Assembly: GCA_034189865.1 (NCBI GenBank)
Contig: JAXHTV010000015.1
Span: forward strand, 1 to 64,000
DNA: 64,000 bases
Reading direction: 5' to 3'
Source of the DNA: Pseudomonadota bacterium
Lineage (GTDB): Bacteria > Pseudomonadota > Gammaproteobacteria > UBA5335
Of the stretch, positions 51,651 through 63,056 are shown piece after piece. Each line of letters begins with the position of its first letter. The stretch's first letter is position 1. Position numbers and translations under genes: made by a program. A model generated the notes under the pieces. It did no database searches. It worked only from the letters and a program-made list of their open reading frames with translations, and was not told the origin of the DNA.

Positions 51651-53009
51651 ATGAGCGAATCCGCCAGCCAAGCCACAACCAGCCGGCAACTGGAAGCCAT
51701 CACGAACGCGCTGACGAGCGGCACCTTTCAACAGGCCCGCCGCCTGCTGAGCGCCCTCCATCCTGCCGAAATTGGTCTGCTTCTGGAGTCGACACCGTCA
51801 CCCGAGCGGGAATTGATCTTCGAACTGGTCAGCCCAGACGACGAAGGGGAGGTGTTGCTGCATGTCAACGATGAGGTTCGCGCAGGCCTGATCAACGCGA
51901 TGGACCAGGAGCAACTAGTAGCCGCCACCCAGAACCTGGATATGGATGACCTGGCGGACATCATCAGCGACCTACCCAGGGCGGTGATCGGGCAAGTGTT
52001 GCGCGCCATGGACCAGCAAGAGAGAGCGCGCCTGGAAGCCGTATTGGCCTACCCGGAAGACAGTGCTGGCGGTCTGATGAACACAGACACGGTCACGGTC
52101 AGGCCCGACGTCAGCATTGACGTGGTTCTCCGGTACCTGCGCGTGCGGGGTAAACTCCCCGAACTTACCGACGCGTTAATCATCGTCGATCGTTACGGCC
52201 ACTACGTGGGTATGCTGCCCATCGCGGAGCTGTTCATCGGTGATCCCGAAGCAACCGTGGCCGATGTCATGATCACTGACGCCGAACCCATTCCGGTAGC
52301 CACCCCCTCGCAACAAGTCGCAAAGATCTTTGAAGACCGCGATCTGATCTCGGCCCCCGTGGTCAACGAAACCGGCGTCGTGGTAGGCCGAATCACTATC
52401 GATGACGTGGTCGACGTGATTCGCGAAGAAGCCGAGCACTCCCTTTTGAGCATGGCCGGTCTCGACGAAGAAGAAGATATGTTTGCGCCCGTAATCACCA
52501 GCTTTCAGCGGCGCTCAGTTTGGTTAGGTGCCAACCTGTTAACAGCTTTCGCCGCATCGGCGGTTGTCGGACTGTATCAACCCACGATTGAGAAAGTTGT
52601 CGCCCTGGCAGTTCTGATGCCCGTTGTCGCCAGCATGGGAGGTATCGCTGGCAGCCAAACGCTGACGCTGATGATCCGGGGTCTGGCGCTCGGCCAACTG
52701 GGTCGCAGCAACACCGGCAAACTGATGAGCAAGGAGCTTGCCTTGGGATTGCTCAACGGCGTGGCATGGGCCTTGGTGGTTTCAGTCATTGCCTTGTTGT
52801 GGTTCGGCAGCGCCTCCCTGGGCCTCGTGATTGCCATGGCCTTGATCGCAAATCTGCTAGTCGCCGCACTCTCCGGCGTACTGATCCCGCTGATTCTCAA
52901 GCGCTTTGGGGTCGATCCGGCGCTCGCCGGTCATGTCATTTTGACCACCGTGACCGATGTGGTCGGCTTTTTCATATTTCTCGGCCTGGGCAGCGTTTTG
53001 CTGCTGTGA
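51651..53009 (+). CDS. mgtE: Magnesium transporter MgtE
   Basis: 452 residues: an acidic helical N-domain (residues 15-130), two CBS domains (about 135-260, IIVDRYGHYVGMLPIAELF and NETGVVVGRITIDDVVDVI), and five membrane helices with the pore motif region (PVVASMGGIAGSQTLTLMIRG). Cytoplasmic Mg2+ binding to the N and CBS domains closes the channel. No Mg2+-sensing M-box is recognised upstream. Confidence 0.95.
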   Translation: MSESASQATTSRQLEAITNALTSGTFQQARRLLSALHPAEIGLLLESTPSPERELIFELVSPDDEGEVLLHVNDEVRAGLINAMDQEQLVAATQNLDMDDLADIISDLPRAVIGQVLRAMDQQERARLEAVLAYPEDSAGGLMNTDTVTVRPDVSIDVVLRYLRVRGKLPELTDALIIVDRYGHYVGMLPIAELFIGDPEATVADVMITDAEPIPVATPSQQVAKIFEDRDLISAPVVNETGVVVGRITIDDVVDVIREEAEHSLLSMAGLDEEEDMFAPVITSFQRRSVWLGANLLTAFAASAVVGLYQPTIEKVVALAVLMPVVASMGGIAGSQTLTLMIRGLALGQLGRSNTGKLMSKELALGLLNGVAWALVVSVIALLWFGSASLGLVIAMALIANLLVAALSGVLIPLILKRFGVDPALAGHVILTTVTDVVGFFIFLGLGSVLLL

Positions 53010-53038: not shown

Positions 53039-53065
53039 CAAAGCTTTTCCGCCGCTTGCCGACAA
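53039..53065 (+). promoter_or_regulatory. Sigma-28 (FliA)-type promoter of the REC/degenerate-GGDEF gene
   Basis: CAAAGCTT (53039-53046), an exact 11-nt spacer and GCCGACAA (53058-53065). The E. coli FliA consensus is TAAAGTTT-N11-GCCGATAA, so 6 of 8 and 7 of 8 bases match. Transcription would start near 53072, 19 nt before the ATG. Confidence 0.6.
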
Positions 53066-53090
53066 CCGATAAAGTAGAGGCGAGCCAGCT

Positions 53091-54152
53091 ATGAGCGCAG
53101 CGAAAAAACTGAAAATCTTGGTTGCAGATGACTCACGCGTCATGCAGGAGTCGATCCGGCGATTCCTCGAACCCCAACACGAGGTCATCACCGTTGCGGA
53201 CGGCGAAGCCGCCTGGGACACACTCCAGGCCGACACATTCGATTTGCTGATCAGCGACATCTCCATGCCGAACCTAGACGGCTACGGGCTGATCTGTCGC
53301 ATCCGGGGCGCAAGCCCGGAGGAAAACTACCAACGCATCCCGATCATCGTAATCACCGGACTGGAAGATAATGTCGTCCGAGTCCGGGCATTCGCCTGCG
53401 GTGCCGATAACTTCATCCCCAAACCGGTGACTCGGGAGACGCTCCTAAAGAATATCGCTTCGGAATTGACCCAACGACGACAATCCTGCGCTGAGCGTGA
53501 ATCAACCCGTGCGCCGGTGACCGCTGACGCGTTCAATGCATCCCTTGATACACTGTTACGACAAACTGATGACGCACACCCGGTATCATTGGTGTGGGTC
53601 ACTGCTCACGCGCCGGAAGAAATTCTCGAGCAGTACGAAAATGAGTTGGGCTACTGGCTGACTCAGGTCGCTGGCGCGCGGCAGAGAGCGAGCGACGTAC
53701 TTGGCCAACTGCAACCCGCCAGTTGCACCCTACTATTACCGGAAACGGATCAACTGACCGCGATGACCATGGCCGAACGGCTCTATTCCGACTTCGCCGC
53801 CCATCCGTTACCGCTCGGCCCGGTATCGGCGCTGGTCACGCCTGTGGTGGGCTACGCGACGGCCGATCAAGCGCAGATCACCACCAAAGCATTCATCCAT
53901 CAGGCCCTGGCTGCGGCCGAAGCAAGTCACGAGAACATTGCGGTGGAGATGGAAGAGTCCGTCATCGAACAACCCACATTGGATCAAGCAGCGGCCATGC
54001 TTCAAAATGGCGAGGAAGGTAAACTGCTACCATACGCCGCAGACATCATGGCGCGAATGTTGCCGCTGTTGGACACTTGTACGGACCAACTCGGCATGGA
54101 TGTGGATAAAGAACTGTCCACGTTACGCGCCAAGCTGGAGTTCTTCCTATGA
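53091..54152 (+). CDS. Response regulator: REC domain plus degenerate GGDEF-like domain
   Basis: 353 residues. REC (1-130) has the acid pair D13/D14, phospho-acceptor D56 (LISDISMPNLDG), T89 and K111, so it should be phosphorylated. Residues about 160-285 look like a GGDEF fold: DVLGQLQPASCTLLLPETD aligns with the usual xxRxGGDEFxxLLPET, but the GGDEF signature itself is replaced by QPASC (208-212), so cyclase activity is not expected. A helical tail (290-353) follows. No histidine kinase is adjacent. A sigma-28-type promoter lies upstream, linking it to motility or surface behaviour. The REC call is firm, the GGDEF relation an inference. Confidence 0.85.
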   Translation: MSAAKKLKILVADDSRVMQESIRRFLEPQHEVITVADGEAAWDTLQADTFDLLISDISMPNLDGYGLICRIRGASPEENYQRIPIIVITGLEDNVVRVRAFACGADNFIPKPVTRETLLKNIASELTQRRQSCAERESTRAPVTADAFNASLDTLLRQTDDAHPVSLVWVTAHAPEEILEQYENELGYWLTQVAGARQRASDVLGQLQPASCTLLLPETDQLTAMTMAERLYSDFAAHPLPLGPVSALVTPVVGYATADQAQITTKAFIHQALAAAEASHENIAVEMEESVIEQPTLDQAAAMLQNGEEGKLLPYAADIMARMLPLLDTCTDQLGMDVDKELSTLRAKLEFFL

Positions 54153-56804: not shown

Positions 56805-57158
56805 TTAGGGAGCGATGGCAGTGGCCAGCCAACCGTAGACGGCGGCTTTGCCGTAAGAAAAGCCAATCTTGAGGTCCAACACGTCATCAGCGAAATCGCC
56901 GGTGAAGTCGTCGGCTTGAATTTCCTCAAGGACTCCGGCTTTGAAACCATTGAACAGGGACGCGTAGCCGAAAACGGTGGAAGCTTTTGACAAAAGCTCA
57001 GGATTCAAAGCGATGTCAATGATAATGTCGCCGATAACGCCTTGGCCACTGACGGCTTGGAGGTCGGTATCGGTCATCGGCGCCAGTTCGGCATTCGCGG
57101 CGAAGGGGGAAGCAACCAAAGCGGCGGCCAACATCGAGCTTTTCACGATCTTGTTCAT
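56805..57158 (-). CDS. Small secreted protein of unknown function with an M-x-D-x-x-L-x-x-VSGQG motif
   Basis: 117 residues. A clear Sec signal peptide (MNKIVKSSMLAAALVASPFAANA, cut after ANA near residue 22) is followed at once by ELAPMTDTDLQAVSGQGVIG. Motifs of this kind occur at the N-terminus of several surface or pilus-linked secreted proteins in gammaproteobacteria. The rest is acidic and moderately hydrophobic (IIIDIALNPEL, DDVLDLKIGFSYGKAAVYGW), without Cys. It has its own terminator and a promoter candidate, so it is probably a single-gene unit. Function not recognised. It sits beside the MSHA locus but 480 nt from mshQ. Confidence 0.8.
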   Translation of the reverse strand: MNKIVKSSMLAAALVASPFAANAELAPMTDTDLQAVSGQGVIGDIIIDIALNPELLSKASTVFGYASLFNGFKAGVLEEIQADDFTGDFADDVLDLKIGFSYGKAAVYGWLATAIAP

Positions 57159-62594: not shown

Positions 62595-63056
62595 TTAGCA
62601 GCCGCCAAGCGCGGGCGTGATATCCGGGGTGTCGTTGGCCGCGGACGGCTCCTCGTACGTGATGGTGCAGGCTCCCGGCGCACCGTCGACGGCAATGGTC
62701 ACACTGGGCGGCGTCGTGGCGTTGGCCGTAGCCGTATAGCCATTCAGATCCTGCAGGGCCGCGACAATGCCGGTCGCTGTTCCCGCCGGATAGCCGTGAA
62801 CCATATCGATGGTTGTCCCGCCGTCGGCGGTGACCGTGCCGGTGGCACCCGTTTGTCCGGTGGCCAAGGCCACGGCGTGAGTCAGTGCCGAGGCGCTACG
62901 AAGACTCCCCTCCAGTGCGTTGGCACTGGCCGTGCGCGCTTGGCCGGTCAGGTCAACGAATCTCGGTACCGCAAATGCGGCCAGGATTCCCAAAATTACA
63001 ATGACAAAAACCAGTTCGATTAAAGTGAAGCCGGCTTGTTGATGTCTCGTTTTCAT
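62595..63056 (-). CDS. mshA: MSHA major pilin MshA
   Basis: 153 residues. AGFTLIELVFVIVILGILAAF is a textbook type IVa prepilin start: short basic leader, cleavage after Gly9, Phe +1, Glu +5. The head is rich in Ala, Thr and Gly and has a C-terminal Cys pair (about 132 and 153) that can close the D-loop. Position before mshC and the strong hairpin after it mark it as the major subunit. A sigma-28-type promoter lies 95-121 nt upstream. MshB, often found next to mshA, is absent. Confidence 0.9.
   Translation of the reverse strand: MKTRHQQAGFTLIELVFVIVILGILAAFAVPRFVDLTGQARTASANALEGSLRSASALTHAVALATGQTGATGTVTADGGTTIDMVHGYPAGTATGIVAALQDLNGYTATANATTPPSVTIAVDGAPGACTITYEEPSAANDTPDITPALGGC

Follow-up and report, generated by a model that had tools for sequence, protein, structure and literature searches.

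What can a response regulator do when the cyclase-like domain behind its receiver has lost its active site, and is its gene under the control of sigma-28 (FliA)? Both questions are raised by one gene in the 64,000-nucleotide stretch of gammaproteobacterial DNA analysed here (the window), where it lies between mgtE and fbp. A sequence-only reading had proposed a FliA-type promoter, an intact receiver (REC) domain, and a degenerate GGDEF domain acting as a c-di-GMP sensor or a protein-binding module.

Protein Architecture and Receiver Domain

The protein and its domains were placed as follows.

53091 to 54152, plus strand: response regulator gene, 353 aa, REC, degenerate GGDEF, and C-terminal tail
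53115 to 53456, plus strand: REC domain, residues 9-122 (Pfam PF00072, E 1.6e-24)
53508 to 53945, plus strand: degenerate GGDEF domain, residues about 140-285, placed by relatives, profile, and Foldseek and lacking a Pfam match of its own
53952 to 54149, plus strand: conserved C-terminal helical tail, residues 288-353, with a PLL motif at 325-327

Pfam recognized only the receiver in the window protein, and only one copy of it. The phosphorylation set (the acid pair D13 and D14, D56, T89, and K111) is complete, as the sequence-only reading had stated, and in the family alignment D56 is kept in 42 of 43 rows and K111 in 43 of 43. From these residues, the receiver is predicted to be phosphorylatable.

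The GGDEF Fold

The closest relative, P0002, is 36% identical to the window protein, has the same domain order, and matched PF00990 with an E value of 1.9e-4; P0003 matched the same profile at 74 bits. When an alignment of the first two relatives was used for a class-wide search, many full-length relatives were recovered. Thirty-nine members, including the window protein, were aligned and showed the REC, GGDEF, and tail architecture, and PF00990 was matched by 38 of them, the window protein being the sole exception. In genome and viral contig scans, the relatives matched mainly the receiver, and few REC-GGDEF proteins were found.

The family profile matched PleD across receiver and GGDEF domain (E 5.7e-66). 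WspR and PleD were also the top Foldseek matches of the full-length AlphaFold model (pLDDT 78), and the best 50 PDB matches listed for a model of residues 138-353, the domain plus the tail, were all GGDEF proteins; the models were built from few, distant rows, and the domain-plus-tail model is of moderate confidence (pLDDT 67). The comparison with GGDEF folds, in which an unrelated fold would have counted against the sequence-only reading, thus came out in its favor, and we conclude from the alignments and models that the predicted GGDEF fold is real in the window protein.

Loss of the Active Site and Retention of the I-Site

Three sites within this domain bear on its function.

53685 to 53696, plus strand: I-site motif RASD (R199xxD202), kept in 42 of 42 tail-bearing members
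53712 to 53726, plus strand: GGDEF signature position, reading QPASC (residues 208-212)
53778 to 53780, plus strand: R230, probable counterpart of PleD's secondary I-site arginine, present in 34 of 39 members and in 38 of 43 rows

We take R230 to correspond to PleD R390, an assignment made by alignment. The QPASC signature described earlier was recovered at residues 208-212, and T171 stands where the D-x-D pair has its first aspartate, so that the window protein has neither the GG[DE]EF signature nor the metal ligands of an active cyclase. The earlier suggestion that the output domain may not be a cyclase is supported by this loss. That the protein might still work as a diguanylate cyclase despite its unusual signature is hardly credible: L132 and L137 share the tail, keep an intact GGEEF, and are probably active cyclases, but in the window protein both the metal-ligand and the signature positions are replaced.

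GG[DE]EF was found in 2 of the 42 tail-bearing members, whereas RxxD was found in every one. Across the 40 degenerate members, the only GGDEF-domain columns conserved at 93% or more were T144, R199, and D202. Because RxxD survives in a domain that has otherwise drifted almost everywhere, we read the domain as a putative c-di-GMP receptor; the window protein itself combines the lost active site with the kept RxxD. Between the two options left open by the sequence-only reading, the c-di-GMP sensor is thus the better one.

The alternative is that the domain binds no nucleotide, that RxxD serves folding or dimer contacts, and that domain and tail form only a phosphorylation-controlled protein-binding module. 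RxxD is common in this genome, where 30 of the 34 rows of canonical GGDEF domains (some of them duplicates) carry it, so structure or inheritance could explain part of its retention; moreover, the tail also holds invariant residues, and no other member is as degenerate as the window protein, which alone among the 39 is not recognized as GGDEF by Pfam. However, the I-site pair accounts for two of only three near-invariant domain columns, and the equivalent residues contact the ligand in the solved receptor BcsE (PMC7439463). We consider this alternative unlikely.

A second concern is that the gene may be decaying toward a pseudogene in this lineage. In addition to the changes above, the window protein has lost further residues that are almost universal (the D of DxLT, D173, and F212), and its branch in the tree is long (1.63), so relaxed selection is possible. 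In contrast, the reading frame is open over its full length, the phosphorylation residues are intact, RxxD and R230 are kept, and the tail shares 42% identity with those of L124 and L101, which makes decay quite improbable. In the tree, the sister of the window protein is P0002, followed by L101/L102, and the signatures GGGEF, RAAEF, NARRF, and QPASC of these proteins can be read as a loss series.

The C-Terminal Tail, the Family, and Its Neighborhood

The tail comprises about 65 residues, which AlphaFold modeled as helices at 297-305, 309-334, and 339-352, and its PLL motif is nearly invariant. No Pfam match to the tail was found in P0001. When a tail-only profile was searched against 369 gammaproteobacterial genomes, 59 contained the tail, and most of the ORFs that carry it are about 360-490 aa long. 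We found no published description of a typA-linked REC-GGDEF family in the literature searched, and the family is widespread and apparently without a name.

In 14 of the 39 loci the gene immediately upstream, on the same strand, is typA/bipA, the sole frequent immediate neighbor; HDOD and yajQ genes are rarer neighbors. The yajQ gene adjoins the family gene in four loci (L119, L121, L123, and L131), and its product is a c-di-GMP binding protein in Xanthomonas. As far as the relatives' loci were read, msh genes, flagellar genes, and kinase genes did not form a shared neighborhood with the family gene, and the suggested search for the same architecture near msh or flagellar genes gave no such case there. 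No partner kinase was found, and no conserved neighbor indicates the output.

FliA was present in 45 of the 59 family-bearing genomes versus 163 of the 310 others (p about 0.001, uncorrected for relatedness); a general link between the family and FliA is therefore statistical only.

Comparison with Known Systems

Receptors with a degenerate GGDEF domain and RxxD are an established kind, represented by PopA, PelD (PMC10333796), and BcsE (PMC7439463). PopA of Caulobacter (REC-REC-degenerate GGDEF) likewise joins receiver domains to an inactive GGDEF domain with RxxD kept (PMC10333796). Unlike PopA, the window protein has one receiver, which places it outside the REC-REC-GGDEF family proper, as well as a conserved C-terminal tail and its own gammaproteobacterial sequence family; its receptor role is predicted from sequence. 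The REC*-GGDEF* tandem of enterobacterial BcsE is catalytically dead as well and binds c-di-GMP via RxxD (PMC7439463), but the BcsE receiver is degenerate and an additional N-terminal domain is present, whereas the phosphorylation residues of the window protein are intact. No bcs genes were seen near the window gene. PelD of Pseudomonas, a membrane protein of Pel polysaccharide production with a GAF and a dead GGDEF domain, reads c-di-GMP through RxxD; unlike the window protein, it has no receiver.

CbrR of Campylobacter is a response regulator with GGDEF that affects motility, and c-di-GMP binding at its I-site is abolished by I-site mutation (PMC8779298). It differs from the window protein in its annotation, a PleD-like DGC, and it binds GTP in addition to c-di-GMP; the likeness drawn here is one of description. 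The active REC-GGDEF cyclases PleD and WspR are the best fold and profile matches of the window protein and its family, but the active site that they keep is lost in the window protein.

Proposed Function

The alignments establish, at the level of sequence, the architecture, the intact receiver, the ruined active site, and the conservation of RxxD and the tail. Taken together with the known receptors, they suggest that the protein is a phosphorylatable c-di-GMP receptor or adaptor that works like PopA, PelD, or BcsE and whose likely output is the tail; we put the probability of this reading at roughly 0.6. More than 30 other GGDEF domains are encoded in the genome, so c-di-GMP is very likely made. 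D56 of the receiver would be phosphorylated by an unlinked histidine kinase, and the former cyclase domain, presumably unable to bind and convert GTP, would bind c-di-GMP at the retained inhibitory site R199xxD202 together with R230. Phosphorylation and c-di-GMP could then jointly set the dimer or domain arrangement, which in turn may decide the contacts of the C-terminal helical tail. The gene may be coexpressed with flagellar late genes from its sigma-28-like site.

If this reading is true, an uncharacterized c-di-GMP receptor is present in about one of six gammaproteobacterial genomes, where Pfam presents it as receiver-only or as receiver plus cyclase domain. The family would also offer a clean test of the change from enzyme to receptor, as it ranges from GGEEF members through GGGEF and RAAEF intermediates to forms in which the signature is fully lost, the window protein among them; the tail and the recurrent typA neighborhood give leads for a search for the output. 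A more far-reaching proposal is tentative and on balance unlikely: that this orphan family, often found beside typA/bipA, consists of REC-GGDEF cyclases turned receptors that join phosphate and c-di-GMP signals and use a new helical tail to reach an undescribed partner, and that it was drawn here into the sigma-28 regulon with at least one diguanylate cyclase.

The Sigma-28-Like Site Upstream of the Gene

53039 to 53065, plus strand: sigma-28 (FliA)-like site, -35 box CAAAGCTT at 53039-53046 and -10 box GCCGACAA at 53058-53065
53076 to 53081, plus strand: likely ribosome-binding site AGAGGC, proposed from the sequence

A consensus scan returned the claimed match: CAAAGCTTTTCCGCCGCTTGCCGACAA agrees with TAAAGTTT-N11-GCCGATAA at 13 of 16 bases (3 mismatches), and it is the only match at this level in the window. 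The site lies inside the 81-bp gap after mgtE (stop at 53009) and ends 25 bp 5' of the ATG at 53091, which leaves space enough for a transcript start at about 53072 and for the ribosome-binding site. A promoter scan detected no sigma-70-like promoter nearby. With a matrix built from 7 sites upstream of flagellar, chemotaxis, and DGC genes of this genome, the site ranked 1st among 127,948 window positions; its score was 14.4, compared with 11.5-20.7 for the seven training sites left out in turn. It is weaker than most confident sigma-28 sites of the genome.

Control of the gene by sigma-28 is plausible on this sequence evidence, with about an even chance of being correct. The competing explanation, to which we give slightly less than even odds and which is compatible with any reading of the protein, is that the site is fortuitous and that transcription results from mgtE read-through or another promoter. 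Two consensus T's are missing from CAAAGCTT-N11-GCCGACAA, and shuffled windows held a mean of 0.20 matches at the 13/16 level, with at least one in 17 of 100. Furthermore, no such site was found upstream of P0002, the other relatives mostly showed 4-8 mismatches to the consensus (L119 alone has 3), and the three closest relatives (G008, G090, and G317) come from genomes in which no FliA was found. Set against these points are the top matrix score, the placement in a short gap that can hold both a start and a ribosome-binding site, the lack of a sigma-70-like site, and the small number of control matches in promoter position, as described below.

The site had been counted as the second of two sigma-28 promoters that suggested a common regulon with mshA.

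63177 to 63151, minus strand: mshA site, TAAAGCGG-N11-GTCGATAG, 11/16 match

This companion site lies about 95 bp 5' of the pilin start at 63056, scored 12.0 with the matrix (rank 6 in the window), and reaches only 11 of 16 consensus bases, so the link to mshA is weak. The count of two promoters includes this weak match, and the common regulon was not supported, given the match and its rank, the relatives' neighbors read so far, and the lack of FliA in the genomes that carry the three closest relatives.

FliA and Sigma-28-Like Sites Elsewhere in the Genome

FliA is encoded in this genome (TIGR02479, 262 bits, above the curated cut-off), and its gene is accompanied by CheY-like and CheZ-like genes and an FlhG-like ATPase gene. 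Genome-wide, the FliA consensus was matched 33 times at up to 3 mismatches, versus 18 for a reversed control pattern, and 6 times versus 0 at up to 2 mismatches; all 18 control matches have exactly 3. Among 3-mismatch matches with loci examined, 10 of 24 sites were intergenic before a start codon versus 1 of 18 controls (Fisher p 0.012), a comparison that rests on crude ORF calling. Sigma-28-like sites precede flgM, flagellin, an MCP, and a PAS-GGDEF cyclase, and weaker ones precede genes read as fliS and flgK.

Such sites were also present at L035 (G000:C1:50868, minus strand), encoding a PAS-GGDEF protein, and at L057 (G000:C13:40169), encoding a 422-aa GGDEF protein, linking sigma-28 to c-di-GMP in this genome. 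An effect of FliA on c-di-GMP levels has been reported in Pseudomonas (PMC4866697); a receptor under FliA control would be reasonable in that light, though this is no proof here.

Two lone amoC/pmoC-like genes (PF04896), L246:3061-3885 (G000:C4) and L247:5006-5776 on the minus strand (G000:C11), lie behind strong sigma-28-like sites, one of them behind two sites 77 bp apart; no amoA or amoB was recognized near either gene in the stretches read. Finally, the window gene at 56805-57158 (minus strand) and L043 encode small, apparently exported proteins that share an LxxVSGQ-like stretch, and a sigma-28-like site precedes the L043 gene.
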